A DNA stretch of 64,000 nt from Candidatus Thorarchaeota archaeon (lineage in GTDB: Archaea > Asgardarchaeota > Thorarchaeia > Thorarchaeales > Thorarchaeaceae), in the NCBI GenBank assembly GCA_021498125.1, contig JAIZWL010000001.1:323434-387433 (forward strand), read 5' to 3'. The notes under the pieces were generated by a model. It saw only the letters and a program-made list of their open reading frames with translations. It was not told the origin of the DNA and did no database searches. The position numbers and the translations under genes were made by a program. The number at the start of each line of letters is the position of its first letter. Within the stretch, counting starts at the first letter, position 1. This document shows positions 38,846 to 56,679 of this stretch, piece by piece.

Positions 38846-39583
38846 ATGAGTGATGTTTACCAATCAGAGCTTTTCGCATCAATTGCCACTTTAGACCAGC
38901 TCAAGCGTCTTTACGATCTGGGCGCGATTAACATCAGATCCTTCCAGCAGGAATCTCAGACTCTCCTCCAAGATGTTCAGCAACACATGGATGAAATGAA
39001 ACGAATGGGTATTGATGTCAACGGTTTCCTTGCAGAAGAGCGAATCATTGATGAGTTTCCTGAGGCAGCTCGGATGATCGGTATAACTCCTCTCCAGACT
39101 CGGAATCTCCAAGGTCTGACCGAGGACGAATACTATGACTATATTGGACTGGCCGTGCTTGATGTGGCAACGGCTAATTCTAACAAGGGTCTCATGGGTC
39201 TTGCAGAACTCATTATTGAGGTCGTCCGCCGTCTGCCAGAGCTTAAATCTGTCAGTTACAATGATGTGATCGAGGCTGTCAACCGTGTATCTCGTGCCGG
39301 GCTAATCCCTGGTATCCGAACACTCAAAGGTGGAGTGAAGATTGTAGAGCTTCGCCCTCTTGAACTACGACGCGATCAGGCCGATGTCATCAATCTTGCC
39401 GCCAGCAAGGGCTATGTCACACTTGAAGAAGTGATGATGGCCCTCAAGTGGTCCGAGGATCATGCGCGCCGCGTTCTCTCCAGCCTTGTCGAGGCAGGAA
39501 TGGCTGTTGTTGACATGAAGTTTAGTACTGGTGGCCGGTATTACTTTCCCGGGCTTCGAAGTAGTACTGAGACCAAAGAATGA
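38846..39583 (+). CDS. vps22: ESCRT-II subunit Vps22 (EAP30/SNF8)
   Basis: A 245-residue homologue of eukaryotic Vps22/EAP30. An N-terminal coiled coil (about 10-60) leads to tandem winged helices. The match to human EAP30 is direct: EFPEAARMIGITPLQ aligns with QFQDMCATIGVDPLA, DEYYDYIGLAVLDVATA with DFYYELGVQIIEVCLAL, and SKGYVTLEEVMMALKWSEDHA with the second-winged-helix segment that begins NGYVTVSEIKASLKW. The ending YYFPGL parallels YWLPAL. In eukaryotes Vps22, Vps25 and Vps36 form ESCRT-II, which nucleates ESCRT-III. It is convergent with vps25, with 14 bases between stops. Confidence 0.9.
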   Translation: MSDVYQSELFASIATLDQLKRLYDLGAINIRSFQQESQTLLQDVQQHMDEMKRMGIDVNGFLAEERIIDEFPEAARMIGITPLQTRNLQGLTEDEYYDYIGLAVLDVATANSNKGLMGLAELIIEVVRRLPELKSVSYNDVIEAVNRVSRAGLIPGIRTLKGGVKIVELRPLELRRDQADVINLAASKGYVTLEEVMMALKWSEDHARRVLSSLVEAGMAVVDMKFSTGGRYYFPGLRSSTETKE

Positions 39584-39597
39584 TTCAGCATTGGTCA

Positions 39598-40335
39598 TCA
39601 GATCGATATGACAATGGCGCCCTTCTTTTTATCCACCCACTTGGCCATGCCCCTCTCGATCAGCATCTCCATTATTTTATACAGATCCTTCTCGGGCAGT
39701 GTTGCAAAAGATTGATGGCTCTCTTGAATGATTAGGGACTTAACATCGATTCGTACATTTCCTGTTGACAGTGCCCATTCGTAGATTATGTCCACCCAGT
39801 CCTCAAGTGGTCGCCAGTAGACCCGGAGTTGTTTTCGTTTCTTGTCCACCCACTTGGCCATGTCTTTGTCCACAAGTAGGCTCGCAATGCGCTTGAATGC
39901 CTCAGTCTTATTGAGTAGAAATTTGAACGGGGTCTCCTTGATGAACGTTGCCACTGAGAACACATGGGTGCTTGTCGCTTCGGCCCATGTGAGAAGATAG
40001 TCCGCCCACTCTTCGGTCCACATCTCAGCGTCATCTTCTCTTGGTGGTATCTGATACATCCATTCGCTCTCTTCAGGTCCGCCCCATGATGGGAATGGTA
40101 TCTGAGGTCTCATCTCGGTCTCATGGATTGCGGGTGCAATGGGATCTGCTGTTGTTGTAGTTGCTGATTGCGTGCTAGTTACAGTTGCCTCTAGCTCCTC
40201 TAACATGGTATCTGGTTCCGTGTCGATCGGTGGTCGAGATACGACTGTTGGAGTGATTCTCTTAGGTGAGGTCTCAGAGCTCTGCTTTTTGGTCTTCTTT
40301 GATTCGGCTTCACGTTTGCGTTCTCGAACGCTCAC
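39598..40335 (-). CDS. vps25: ESCRT-II subunit Vps25 with a disordered N-terminal extension
   Basis: A 245-residue protein. Residues 1-75 are Lys/Ser/Thr-rich and disordered; from about 76 comes a Vps25 core of two winged helices. The PPR motif after the aromatic WMYQIPP matches the Vps25 N-terminal motif that contacts Vps22/Vps36. MAKWVDKKRKQLRVYWRPLE and DWVDIIYEWALSTG align closely with human Vps25 LEWLDKSKSSFLIMWRRPEE and WGKLIYQWVSRSG, and the segment is echoed by a second AKWVDKKKG at the C-terminus. It starts with GTG 40335, with GGAGG 11 bases upstream at the end of vps4, so the two genes are co-transcribed (3-base gap). Confidence 0.88.
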   Translation of the reverse strand: MSVRERKREAESKKTKKQSSETSPKRITPTVVSRPPIDTEPDTMLEELEATVTSTQSATTTTADPIAPAIHETEMRPQIPFPSWGGPEESEWMYQIPPREDDAEMWTEEWADYLLTWAEATSTHVFSVATFIKETPFKFLLNKTEAFKRIASLLVDKDMAKWVDKKRKQLRVYWRPLEDWVDIIYEWALSTGNVRIDVKSLIIQESHQSFATLPEKDLYKIMEMLIERGMAKWVDKKKGAIVISI

Positions 40336-40338
40336 GAC

Positions 40339-41559
40339 TTAGGTCGCCTCCGCCCATTCGATGTATTTTCTGACGTTCTCAGGAGATGTTGCTGGTCGTG
40401 TGTTACTGATGGCTCGTAGAAAGTCTCCGCGCTCGACTGGTCTTACATCCAAGATCTCCTTATCATCATCAAGTCTTCCACTTCTTTGGAGATCACGGAT
40501 TGGTTCCATTGAGGCCTCTCGACATACGATACTGATATCGCGGCCACTGTATCCTGCTGTGAGATCCGCAAGCTCATCGTAATCGACGTTTGCACCAATT
40601 TCAATATCTGTCATGTGGATCTCAAAAATGCTCTTCCGTGCGATCTTGTCCGGGAGAGGTACATGTATCCGTTTCTCAAAGCGAGAACGTAGAGCAAAGT
40701 CGATCTCCCAAGGAAGGTTTGTGGCGCCAATTACAGTAATCCGTTCATCCGGACTACTGGCAAGGCCTTGGAGTTCGGTGAGTAATTGAGTCTTCATTCT
40801 ACGCTCGCCACCCACATCATCACCTGATCTGGCGCCACCAATGGAATCGATCTCATCAATGAACACAATCGCAGGCTGATTTTTCCGGGCCAATTCAAAC
40901 AATGTATGGACGAGCCTCTCTGACTCGCCTAGCCACTTGCTGACGATGTTTGCAGCAGACACGTTGAAGAAGGTTGCCTTGATTTCAGATGCAACTGCAC
41001 GCGCGATCAATGTCTTACCGCACCCTGCGGGGCCATAGAACAATATCCCTCTCCAGGGCTGTCGCACTCGCCCCTTGAACAGTTCCGGATGCTTCATTGG
41101 TGCAATGATCGCATCTTGAATTGCTTGTTTGGCATCTTCAAGTCCTGCCACATCATCCATACGCACATCGGGGACTTCTGTCACAATAGTGTCAGACATC
41201 ATCTCTTGAAGCTTCTTGGTCTCCTCATCAACCTCTATGGTCTCCGCACTGGGTGTTCCCTTATCAGCATCCGCTTCAGTTTCGCTCTCGGGTTCGATAG
41301 GGGTGGGTCTGACAAGTCCAATTGAGGGACTATCTCTCTTTTCGATGCCCGATAGATGGCGAACCCTATCTACGCACTCTTGGGCGCGTTTGAAATATAG
41401 GTCTCGTAATGATGGTAATGCTGCTGCATTAGACATTTTGATGAGAACTTTACTGGCCTTCAGATAATACTGACAGGCCTCTTTTGTCATTCCCCTCTTA
41501 TCAAGGTCAATTGCTTTATCAAGAAGTGCCTTGACCCCTTTATCCAATCTATCTGCCAT
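40339..41559 (-). CDS. vps4: Vps4-type AAA ATPase with MIT domain
   Basis: A 406-residue protein. An MIT three-helix domain (residues 5-70: VKALLDKAIDLDKRG, ACQYYLKASKVLIKM) is linked to an AAA core: Walker A FYGPAGCGKTLIARA (176-183), Walker B AIVFIDEIDSIGGAR, and the second-region motif ERRMKTQLLTELQG with IGATNLPWEID. In eukaryotes Vps4 dismantles ESCRT-III filaments by pulling on their tails, to which MIT binds. ATG 41559 is chosen because AGTGATC sits 4-5 bases upstream; the frame also has GTG 41568. It is divergent from the ESCRT-III gene across a 142-base shared promoter region. Confidence 0.95.
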   Translation of the reverse strand: MADRLDKGVKALLDKAIDLDKRGMTKEACQYYLKASKVLIKMSNAAALPSLRDLYFKRAQECVDRVRHLSGIEKRDSPSIGLVRPTPIEPESETEADADKGTPSAETIEVDEETKKLQEMMSDTIVTEVPDVRMDDVAGLEDAKQAIQDAIIAPMKHPELFKGRVRQPWRGILFYGPAGCGKTLIARAVASEIKATFFNVSAANIVSKWLGESERLVHTLFELARKNQPAIVFIDEIDSIGGARSGDDVGGERRMKTQLLTELQGLASSPDERITVIGATNLPWEIDFALRSRFEKRIHVPLPDKIARKSIFEIHMTDIEIGANVDYDELADLTAGYSGRDISIVCREASMEPIRDLQRSGRLDDDKEILDVRPVERGDFLRAISNTRPATSPENVRKYIEWAEAT

Positions 41560-41701
41560 CGTGATCACTTACTCTCAACAGGAAACAGTAATGAACTTCA
41601 CTCTTTCTAGTCTAAGTGGTCTTCACTCAGACCGAGAGCTACGAAGATTTAAACGATGAGACACTGAGTTATTTATGAAAAGAGTGTTTTGGTGAGATTC
41701 T

Positions 41702-42319
41702 TTGGGTTCCATAAGAAAGGCCTTCACATGGGGGCGAAAAAAGCCCGACGTGTCTGAGATGCTCAGCCGGCTCAGGATACTTGTTCGTCAGCTAGAACGT
41801 GAGCGTAATAAGATGGAGAAAGAAGCCCGTGATGCTAAGGCACGTGCGGTCAAGGCGCGCAAGACCAGCAACCGTGAGGCGTATCAGATGTATGCCACTG
41901 AAATGGTTCGGTTGCGTCGCTCCACTCTAGTCCTTGACAAGACGCGGTTGCGTATCCTTCGTATTATCTCTCATGTTCAACGGGCTCAGACGACTGCAAA
42001 GGTCAGTATGGCAGTAGGTCAGGTCGCAGAGATTATGAAGATGCTGGGTGATGCGACTGAGACCCCCAAGGTGATAGATCATCTAGACGAGATCTCACGC
42101 AGGTTGGAAGAGTTTGAGATCGAGAGCGGAATTGTCGGTGAGGCCTTTGAAGTAACAAGCGATAGTCGTGTCAGTTCTGAAGATCTTACAGCAGCCATGG
42201 CAGAGATTGATGCCGAGGCTGGTGTTGCTACGGCGGTTTCGCCAACACATGTGGTCATCAGTGAGAGCGATAAATTGGAGGACGAGATTCGCGCTCTTGA
42301 AGAGGAACTCGGAAAATAA
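41702..42319 (+). CDS. ESCRT-III (Snf7/CHMP-type) filament protein
   Basis: A 205-residue, almost wholly helical protein with the Snf7 layout. The N-terminus has a basic, amphipathic segment (GSIRKAFTWGRKKP), then the basic helical hairpin LRILVRQLERERNKMEKEAR, then a helix VAEIMKMLGDAT near residue 110 as in CHMP proteins, and an acidic C-terminal part. The last helix, DKLEDEIRALEEELGK, resembles an MIM1 motif that would be bound by the MIT domain of the adjacent Vps4. The start is TTG 41702, with GGTGA 6 bases upstream. Filaments of this family cut or bend membranes. Only one Snf7 copy is in this window; Asgard genomes often carry a second. Confidence 0.87.
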   Translation: MGSIRKAFTWGRKKPDVSEMLSRLRILVRQLERERNKMEKEARDAKARAVKARKTSNREAYQMYATEMVRLRRSTLVLDKTRLRILRIISHVQRAQTTAKVSMAVGQVAEIMKMLGDATETPKVIDHLDEISRRLEEFEIESGIVGEAFEVTSDSRVSSEDLTAAMAEIDAEAGVATAVSPTHVVISESDKLEDEIRALEEELGK

Positions 42320-42323
42320 CCGT

Positions 42324-43901
42324 CTACCACCTGAAGGATCTTCTCCTGTCCTCATAGTGATTATGTAGCCGACGGATCTTGTATTGTTCGCGCATGAGGC
42401 TTCTATACCTACGCACAAAGTCGCTGGGTACGATCATACCCGTCCGGAGCAGTTGAACGGTCTCACGAATATCGTTCTCAATATCCCTAATGGTCTGGTT
42501 CATGTGTATGGCCTCTGCATCCTGTGGTGCAGTAGCTGGCCCATAGCGCCATGTGTTTGCCCTTCCGATAATGTCCTCCAGTTCGTCCCTAAAACTATCA
42601 TAACGGGGGGACATACTTGGACTATACTGGTGATCTGTTTGGGGGCGTGACCAATCAGATGAGTACCTTCTTGGAGGCGAACGGAGTTCAGGTTGTGGTG
42701 TTGAGTAGTGGTTGTTCGACAGCAGTTGATATACAAGTTCGTCGATTCTAAGACGGGCGTCACTTGCGTTCACATCGCAGGCCTGGATCTTTCGTACTCT
42801 CTGCATATCGGTCTGAATATACCTGTCGAACTTCCTTGCAATCTCGATATAATCCGGAAGGACTCTCTGTGTCTGTTCACTACATGAGATCTTTAGAACG
42901 CCCTGTTTGAACTTGAGGACCAGACGTTTTCGGAATCGGCCATCCTCCTCAAACCCGTTGAGATACAGTAATGGGAATTGGAAGATTACCTCGGTCTTTT
43001 TCCTGAAAGTCCCTGTTGTAGCAATAAAGATGAGTCGTCGATTTGTCACGTACAGAGTTCCTGAGGCCTTATCATGCTTGAGAAAATCACTACCCGTCAC
43101 CCGAATCTCCGGGAAGGCACAGACTGGAAGTTCTCCGACATCAAGTTCAACAAGTTCCCCGAACCCTGCGAACTGGCGCTTATAGTAGTCGAGACCCTCA
43201 ATGTGCTTGCGAAGATCTCGTAGTTTCTTGTTGACTTCTTCGAGTGTGTCATCAACATGACGCCTGTATTGAGTTCCCAATTCTGTCATTCGATTTGTGA
43301 CACCAGTGATGAACGGAAACTCCTGTGCCGTCCATGACGGATAGTCCATGAGACCCTTGGTTTCAGCAGCCATCTGGCGGGCGACGATCTCGGCCTGTTT
43401 CACAATCCTGTTCTTCAGAGCTGGCAACTCGTCTTGGATGGCCTCGATCTGTTCTTCAAGCCACTTGTAATGGAGAAACTTGGCCATTCGCAACGAGACC
43501 AGTGTCTGACGTGCATCAGTAAGGTTCCTGACAAACTCGCGCAGCTTGGAGTGCCCATATTGCAGCATCATGATTGTGTGTCTCAGCTCTTGTGCAAGCT
43601 CTCTCCGTTTCTCTTCAATAGGGATCAATCGTGTCGAGCGGCACTTTGGGCAGATGTCCACTGTCCGCTTTCCGATACTCAAATTTTCAGACCCGCACTC
43701 TGGGCATTTCTCAGGTCGAGGTTGCCCTGGTGTGACTGGCCCCAATTTATGATGGCAGTCGCTACAGAAGTAGTACTCAGTCGTCCGATGATCTAGACAG
43801 TCTGAACATAATACTGCCCCGCAGTCCTCACATAGATGCGTTGCATTGCCACTGTGGCATGATTCACAAGAGTTGGGGGATGGTTGATTTTCCACGTTCA
43901 A
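42324..43901 (-). CDS. B-box-like zinc finger, coiled-coil, PH/GRAM-like protein beside the ESCRT genes
   Basis: A 525-residue multidomain protein. Residues 12-51 hold a B-box-like double zinc site (CESCHSGNATHLCEDC, then LCSDCLDH and FCSDCHH); 66-87 a second zinc ribbon (CPECGSENL ... CPKC). A long coiled coil follows (about 100-255), then a beta-rich PH/GRAM-like domain (about 262-370: TLYVTNRRLIFIATTGTF, VIFQFPLLYLNGF). A disordered Pro/Ser/Arg region (390-440) and a helical tail (FRDELEDIIGRA) end it. Its gene ends 4 bases from the ESCRT-III stop. The zinc and PH modules recall Vps36 (zinc fingers in a split PH/GLUE domain), but no winged helices are seen, so an ESCRT adaptor role is inference. 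Confidence 0.65.
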   Translation of the reverse strand: MNVENQPSPNSCESCHSGNATHLCEDCGAVLCSDCLDHRTTEYYFCSDCHHKLGPVTPGQPRPEKCPECGSENLSIGKRTVDICPKCRSTRLIPIEEKRRELAQELRHTIMMLQYGHSKLREFVRNLTDARQTLVSLRMAKFLHYKWLEEQIEAIQDELPALKNRIVKQAEIVARQMAAETKGLMDYPSWTAQEFPFITGVTNRMTELGTQYRRHVDDTLEEVNKKLRDLRKHIEGLDYYKRQFAGFGELVELDVGELPVCAFPEIRVTGSDFLKHDKASGTLYVTNRRLIFIATTGTFRKKTEVIFQFPLLYLNGFEEDGRFRKRLVLKFKQGVLKISCSEQTQRVLPDYIEIARKFDRYIQTDMQRVRKIQACDVNASDARLRIDELVYQLLSNNHYSTPQPELRSPPRRYSSDWSRPQTDHQYSPSMSPRYDSFRDELEDIIGRANTWRYGPATAPQDAEAIHMNQTIRDIENDIRETVQLLRTGMIVPSDFVRRYRSLMREQYKIRRLHNHYEDRRRSFRW

Positions 43902-55872: not shown

Positions 55873-56679
55873 TCAATGCACCTGCCAAAATGTCCACATC
55901 AGCACAATCATACACGCAAGTGAGACAAGAAATGCCCATTCGGTCGAAGTATCGTGCGCCTCTCTAATACCAAATATAAGGAGGAATCCGACCCATGCAA
56001 AGGACGCTGCTGTTGCATAATCTAACATAATCCAGAATCCTGAACTATGTATTGCCATTACTATGGCTGCCCAAGTTCCTGGATTGCTCACGTTAAACGA
56101 TCCTGGTATTGCCAGAAGTACAACAAGTGCCGCCAATCTAAAGAGTACCACTGGGAATATACTATACCCTACTATAGATAGGGTCTTCATCTTGCCTCCA
56201 GTACCACCAGTGATCTTGAAGGCGAGATGTGCAAATCCCGTTCCGAGGATCAAAAACACCATCCCCAGGAGTATGTTCGTCACGATCGAGGCCAACGCCC
56301 CTGCATAAAATGGCATACTATCCGATGTTGATAATACACTCGTGTCAACTATCGTGCCATTGACATTGACTGGAACGTACATCTTGGATGCAATTGAGAG
56401 ATAGTATCCAGTAATGATCAATGCATTGAGAATTATGATAATTAGTGGTCCCGCGGCGTCTGGTTTATGTCCTATATCCCTATAGGTTGGAGCTGGTCTT
56501 CTGATCACGCCCCATAACCGTTCAAGTGGCCCCATCATGCGTACATCTGGTGCCTCAGGTCGCTTGAGCATTGGAAGTAGTCGTTCCAACCGTTCCTCTG
56601 CAATGGTCTCTTTGCAGACTGGACAAACAGTAGCATCAGCAGGAACTGGGCTGCCACAAAAGGCACAACGCCGTACCAT
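55873..56679 (-). CDS. Yip1-domain membrane protein with N-terminal zinc ribbon
   Basis: A 268-residue protein. A zinc ribbon CAFCGSPVPADATVCPVC (5-22) is followed by a linker (LLPMLKRPEAPDVRMMGPLERL) and then about five membrane helices of the Yip1/YIF1-like type; RRPAPTYRDIGHKPDAAGP before the first helix is typical of this domain. Yip1 proteins in eukaryotes act in ER-to-Golgi transport; archaeal ones have no known role. It lies next to an ECF S-component gene and a helix-turn-helix gene on the same strand. Confidence 0.75.
   Translation of the reverse strand: MVRRCAFCGSPVPADATVCPVCKETIAEERLERLLPMLKRPEAPDVRMMGPLERLWGVIRRPAPTYRDIGHKPDAAGPLIIIILNALIITGYYLSIASKMYVPVNVNGTIVDTSVLSTSDSMPFYAGALASIVTNILLGMVFLILGTGFAHLAFKITGGTGGKMKTLSIVGYSIFPVVLFRLAALVVLLAIPGSFNVSNPGTWAAIVMAIHSSGFWIMLDYATAASFAWVGFLLIFGIREAHDTSTEWAFLVSLACMIVLMWTFWQVH

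Follow-up and report, generated by a model that had tools for sequence, protein, structure and literature searches.

One open question in eukaryogenesis is how the ESCRT machinery was brought to membranes before there was Vps36 or ubiquitin-dependent sorting; in eukaryotes, the membrane tethering that nucleates ESCRT-III is the job of the GLUE domain of Vps36 together with the link between ESCRT-I and ESCRT-II. The question arises at a locus of a Candidatus Thorarchaeota archaeon, where the 64,000-nucleotide stretch of DNA that we analysed (the window) carries an ESCRT cluster in which the gene for a 525-amino-acid (aa) protein converges on that for ESCRT-III. The original prediction took this protein for a possible stand-in for Vps36, and suggested that it may be an undescribed membrane or ubiquitin adaptor. 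Our analysis indicates that the protein probably anchors the ESCRT machinery to the membrane. The genes concerned are:

38846..39583, forward strand: Vps22 (EAP30), its N terminus a fused Vps28-type steadiness box; EAP30 E 6.8e-18, human SNF8 E 9e-19
39598..40335, reverse strand: Vps25; ESCRT-II Pfam match, E 6.9e-11
40339..41568, reverse strand: Vps4 ATPase with MIT, AAA and Vps4_C domains, from Pfam
41702..42319, forward strand: ESCRT-III (Snf7 family), the convergent neighbour; Snf7 E 2.7e-11, tail-to-tail pair conserved
42324..43901, reverse strand: Znr_CC_PH_SB-type ESCRT adaptor, 525 aa; from the open reading frame (ORF), homologues, invariant cysteines and an AlphaFold2 model

A conserved convergent neighbour of ESCRT-III

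The ORF at 42324-43901 on the reverse strand is exact and opens with a TTG start codon; it is a real gene, and a search with its single sequence found homologues in 159 of the 196 phylum genomes. Counted from profile matches at E<1e-20, the family is present in about 160 of the 196 sampled genomes and in 19 of 28 families, and is absent or too divergent for the profile search in the other nine. The closest named homologues belong to Candidatus Thorarchaeota, with up to 82% identity; named relatives come from Thor-, Loki-, Jord- and Sigynarchaeia, and every search that we made returned Asgard matches only. Two genomes titled Lokiarchaeota (L106 and L110) carry Thor-type copies, 50% and 43% identical to the window's own, as well as the Thor-type Vps28-Vps22 fusion described below; they are probably mislabelled or sister to Thor genomes.

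Only four bases separate the gene from that of ESCRT-III, and this arrangement is widely kept. Of 120 testable loci, some of which share a genome, 103 have ESCRT-III downstream in convergent orientation, within 2.5 kb: they comprise the window, every one of the 59 Thor-group loci that had enough sequence, and non-Thor loci of two sets, 25 of 26 in one and 18 of 34 in the other. In 17 non-Thor loci the adaptor gene does not converge directly on an ESCRT-III gene that we recognised, and several of these exceptions (L051, L059, L061 and L065) still lie near an ESCRT cluster. With about 3,000 genes to choose from, chance falls far short of explaining this pairing, and the linkage to ESCRT genes on which the original prediction depended is kept across the phylum.

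Elsewhere in the window, 55873-56679 on the reverse strand encodes a Yip1-domain membrane protein (E 1e-19), of a family linked in eukaryotes to Rab and vesicle traffic.

Domain architecture of the adaptor family

To the Pfam library the window protein alone falls below every cut-off, a PDB search with its single sequence was uninformative, and NCBIfam gave nothing useful. The B-box and PH assignments therefore rest on the family and its profiles, by which the domains were resolved, through an alignment of 49 homologues with 20-64% identity; an AlphaFold2 model on this alignment has a mean pLDDT of 85 and a pTM of 0.63. The domains, all on the reverse strand, are:

43755..43868, reverse strand: eight-cysteine B-box-like zinc module, residues 12-49; eight cysteines invariant in 49 homologues, zf-B_box in 14 of 26 members
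43641..43706, reverse strand: Cys4 zinc ribbon, residues 66-87; four invariant cysteines, DZR E 6.6e-4, under the Pfam cut-off
43170..43619, reverse strand: long helical or coiled-coil region, residues 95-244; AlphaFold2 helices 95-139, 146-180 and 192-244, pLDDT mostly >90
42834..43127, reverse strand: PH (GRAM/GLUE-type) domain, residues 259-356; AlphaFold2, Foldseek, Pfam on family members, basic residues
42531..42713, reverse strand: disordered linker, residues 397-457; low pLDDT in AlphaFold2
42330..42530, reverse strand: Vps23-type steadiness box, a helical hairpin at residues 458-524; profile against the PDB, Vps23_core, AlphaFold2

Twelve cysteines, at positions 12, 15, 24, 27, 32, 35, 46, 49, 66, 69, 84 and 87, are invariant in all 49 aligned homologues. 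The first eight are spaced CX2C-X8-CX2C-X4-CX2C-X10-CX2C; zf-B_box reaches E 1.2e-4 at best, and the module differs from B-boxes in having CxxC at their histidine places. It would hold two zinc sites, which with the CX2C-X14-CX2C ribbon would make three zinc sites in two modules.

The PH domain is a contiguous seven-strand barrel with a C-terminal helix, and the region folded in isolation gave the same fold as in the full-length model. Foldseek against the PDB placed the PH-GRAM domain of MTMR2 first and the GLUE domains of yeast Vps36 and human EAP45 at ranks 2-4 (E 7e-5 to 1e-4, TM about 0.5-0.6); among family members, Pfam matched bPH_3 in 17 of 21, GRAM in 11 and Vps36_ESCRT-II in 11, with the GLUE model below cut-off. 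Judged from the predicted structure the domain is GRAM/GLUE-like, GLUE and myotubularin GRAM being equally near. Conserved basic residues (K275 and K278; R300, K301 and K302; R322, K325 and R326) sit within three loops that connect strands, or at the edges of these loops, and columns with at least 90% lysine or arginine number 9 of 111 in this domain versus 8 of 339 across the four remaining regions counted. Such loops are as expected of a phosphate-binding face and suggest lipid binding. Cysteines, AlphaFold2 and Foldseek thus agree with the two zinc modules, coiled coil and PH/GRAM-like domain beside ESCRT-III that the original prediction had read from the sequence.

That prediction did not include the C-terminal hairpin at 458-524, whose helices span residues 458-486 and 492-524 (pLDDT about 96 up to residue 510, the tip lower). 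Searched against all PDB sequences, its profile put three yeast Vps23 core chains at the top (E 1.4e-7 to 1.4e-6), followed in fourth place by human TSG101 (E 9e-4), with an alignment that spans the whole hairpin. Bacterial PH proteins often end in a SHOCT hairpin, and we considered this class for the C terminus; it was rejected, since SHOCT matched only 2 of 20 family members versus 17 of 20 for Vps23_core. Over the whole 3.1-Mb genome the Vps23_core model finds only the 525-aa protein, at E 0.11, below cut-off. On these profile matches, residues 458-524 are a steadiness box of Vps23 type, the steadiness box being the assembly module of ESCRT-I.

Four other hairpin ORFs in the genome match the steadiness-box profile at E<0.05, and two reach E<1e-3; three of these extra ORFs, scanned against Pfam as a control, gave no Vps23_core or VPS28 match. 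Hairpins of this steadiness-box or SHOCT-like kind in the same genome (L143-L147; G000:C3:74566-74691, C1:155138-155287, C1:664110-664508 and C3:137253-137345) are carried by a protein of 118 aa, by a large membrane protein on its cytoplasmic tail, by a 201-aa protein with a double hairpin, and by a coiled-coil protein with a zinc ribbon. Unrelated Thor proteins thus have such hairpins too, and the pairing of one hairpin with another could be promiscuous.

The linker between the PH domain and the steadiness box has a median of 64 aa in Thor versus about 197 aa in the mostly Lokiarchaeal non-Thor set, in which the long linker is rich in Asn, Gln and Pro (L031-L050, L115-L141); we looked in the linkers for the P[ST]AP motif of UEV recruitment and found none. 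The extreme C termini (42324-42335 in the window, and the homologues) are aromatic and lineage-specific: Trp is the last residue in 23 of 29 Thor-group proteins, as in KLW or FRW, and in most of 20 non-Thor proteins the end is a motif like RFYT or RYYS. From their sequences these tails look like a conserved short binding motif.

Vps22 as a candidate docking partner

For the C-terminal hairpin, a candidate partner lies in the same cluster:

38861..39085, forward strand: Vps28-type steadiness box at the Vps22 N terminus, residues 6-80; profile-profile match to Asgard Vps28, predicted dock for residues 458-524

The Vps22 N terminus aligned with Asgard Vps28 over 75 columns (hhalign, probability score 98.4, E 7.6e-15). 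An Asgard Vps28 profile, built from four sequences and liable to miss a Vps28-BAR fusion, found it as the sole significant match in the genome (E 4e-13, covering positions 6-80 of 202), and a separate Vps28 was not found with this profile. The same Vps28-Vps22 fusion is present in every Thor-group locus with Vps22 in its ESCRT cluster, whereas in other Asgard loci Vps28 is either a full-length protein of its own or part of a UEV-SB-Vps28 fusion (SB, steadiness box). Against the PDB, the Vps22 N-terminal profile matched yeast Vps28 best, weakly (E 0.1), and it shares with the hairpin profile the entries 2f66, 2f6m, 2p22 and 2caz, which contain Vps23 and Vps28 cores together. In these ESCRT-I cores the Vps23 and Vps28 boxes pack against each other, so the simplest reading is that residues 458-524 dock on Vps22 residues 6-80; the profiles of the two boxes are only distantly alike.

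Published interactions bear on this pairing. By yeast two-hybrid assay, a freestanding steadiness-box protein of Lokiarchaea, which may be a member of the 525-aa protein's family, binds Vps22, and Thor Vps22 self-associates (Hatano 2022, PMC9192718). In Thorarchaeia, Vps28 is also reported to be fused to a BAR protein (Vps5-BAR; Eme et al. 2023, PMC10307638), and this Vps28-BAR protein could be the partner instead of Vps22. At one further locus (L150), a Na+/H+ antiporter-like protein with two hairpins at its end (31-1644) is followed by a 256-aa helical protein (1732-2502) that looks BAR-like to the eye, and may be compared with the BAR-Vps28 fusions of Thor (Eme 2023).

The mechanism that we propose is as follows. 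The Vps23-type box of the 525-aa protein would dock on the Vps28-type box of Vps22, giving a mixed ESCRT-I/II head; the PH domain, through its basic loops, would bind acidic lipid; the long helices would form a rod; and the B-box-like and zinc-ribbon modules may bind cargo, a partner or another copy of the protein. Membrane-tethered ESCRT-II (Vps22-Vps25) could then nucleate the neighbouring ESCRT-III, in division or in vesicle release, a role that would equal that of the Vps36 GLUE domain and the ESCRT-I/ESCRT-II link of eukaryotes, here probably without ubiquitin. Taken whole, as an ESCRT-I-type membrane adaptor with its box docked on Vps22, its PH domain on acidic lipid and ESCRT-II thereby tethered, this is the reading that we favour, with moderate confidence.

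Docking on Vps22 must be weighed against the proposal that the protein is an ordinary ESCRT-I subunit whose box pairs with another steadiness-box protein, such as a fusion of Vps28 with BAR or some small hairpin protein encoded elsewhere in the genome. The Vps28-Vps5-BAR fusion reported in Thorarchaeia (Eme et al. 2023, PMC10307638), the interaction of a steadiness box with Vps28 suggested in Loki and Thor (Hatano 2022, PMC9192718) and the further hairpin ORFs would all suit such a partner, yet the Vps28 profile finds only the Vps22 N terminus in this genome and the three scanned hairpin ORFs match neither Vps23_core nor VPS28; we consider it unlikely. A little less probable again is a CdvA-like membrane platform on which, in cell division, ESCRT-III would be recruited directly and independently of ESCRT-II. 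ESCRT-III itself is indeed the most conserved neighbour, the CdvA model of Pfam matches 2 of 26 members weakly, and the similarity of steadiness boxes to CdvA in HHpred and the Zn-coil-CdvA proteins of Thermoproteales, as reported by Makarova 2024 (PMC10936438), point the same way; against this, Vps23_core scores far above CdvA, and Thor Vps22 bears the matching Vps28-type box.

Two further alternatives turn on what the genome lacks, as far as the sensitivity of the profiles reaches. Vps36 was not found, in keeping with the original prediction; the best match to the Vps36 GLUE model of Pfam is the PH domain of the 525-aa protein itself, at a sub-threshold E of 0.39. This match, with the Foldseek ranks of the GLUE domains, would suit an ESCRT-II subunit in the place of Vps36 in the Vps22-Vps36 heterodimer. 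We hold that to be improbable: Pfam and the AlphaFold2 model give the 525-aa protein no EAP30 domain or tandem winged helices, its zinc modules are N-terminal and outside the PH fold, and Thor Vps22 self-associates (PMC9192718). Of the proposed standing-in for Vps36, work like that of a GLUE arm is reasonable, whereas the class is ESCRT-I by the Vps23-type box rather than an ESCRT-II subunit. The order of B-box and coiled coil recalls a TRIM-like ubiquitin adaptor or ligase, which was rejected for this genome and which we regard as very improbable indeed: ubiquitin had no match, UEV had no credible one (the best was a stop-broken frame at E 0.12), and the protein had no RING or NZF match. The UEV model of Pfam also matched none of 47 genomes of the host's family, although it likewise matched none in a large Lokiarchaeal family, and UEV proteins have been published in Lokiarchaea. 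Thorarchaeota have been described as lacking ubiquitin (Hatano et al. 2022, PMC9192718), yet the 12 cysteines are invariant; a ubiquitin-adaptor role is thus unlikely here, so the zinc modules must serve something else, and the ubiquitin half of the original prediction is not supported in this genome.

Relation to known ESCRT systems

The architecture has a published counterpart. According to Makarova et al. 2024 (mBio, PMC10936438), the Asgard-specific Znr_CC_PH_SB protein (cog.011556) has three zinc ribbons, a coiled coil, a PH domain and a steadiness box, and is a likely ESCRT-I component, proposed to be ancestral in Asgardarchaeota; from the analogy with Vps36, its PH domain is expected to associate with the membrane, and Asgard Vps22 is noted as fused to a steadiness box. 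The 525-aa protein has the three zinc sites, coiled coil, PH domain, C-terminal steadiness box and ESCRT linkage; it matches cog.011556 by architecture and context, and nothing contradicts membership. The adaptor is accordingly not undescribed, as had been supposed. Pairing of the steadiness box with the Vps28-Vps22 fusion was not found in the portion of that text considered here (PMC10936438). New here are the assignment of the boxes as Vps23-type (525-aa protein) and Vps28-type (Vps22), their predicted docking, the phylum-wide convergent pairing with ESCRT-III, and a genome in which no Vps28, UEV or ubiquitin was found elsewhere.

With a PH domain and an ESCRT-I steadiness box in one chain, this widespread Asgard protein is a direct candidate for early membrane targeting. 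In Thorarchaeia, the fusion offers a two-protein test (residues 458-524 with Vps22 residues 6-80) in an apparently ubiquitin-free system, which would separate membrane targeting from cargo ubiquitination. More tentatively, ESCRT-I and ESCRT-II may have merged in this lineage into one ubiquitin-independent complex: the Vps28 head would have moved to Vps22, the remainder of Vps28 and the UEV subunit would have been lost, and the PH protein would supply the Vps23-type head and the membrane arm, for which eukaryotes later used the Vps36 GLUE domain.

Compared with eukaryotic Vps36, the 525-aa protein is alike in its PH domain (Vps36 being among the nearest folds), in its putative service as the membrane arm of ESCRT-II and in having zinc modules in the chain; it is unlike in lacking EAP30 winged helices, in having a coiled coil and a steadiness box that Vps36 lacks, and in a genome with no ubiquitin match. 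Its zinc modules are N-terminal (12-87) and its PH domain contiguous (259-356), whereas in yeast Vps36 the zinc fingers lie inside the PH fold. With Vps23/TSG101 and Vps37 of ESCRT-I it shares long helices and a C-terminal steadiness box, closest in sequence to that of Vps23, but it has zinc modules and a PH domain and, by Pfam, no UEV. Of the RING, B-box and coiled-coil series of TRIM proteins it has only the B-box-like module and the coil, with no RING match. CdvA and the Zn-coil-CdvA proteins of TACK archaea are likewise coiled-coil hairpin proteins adjoining ESCRT-III; the CdvA domain is a PRC barrel, where the 525-aa protein has a PH domain, and its match to Vps23_core is far stronger.
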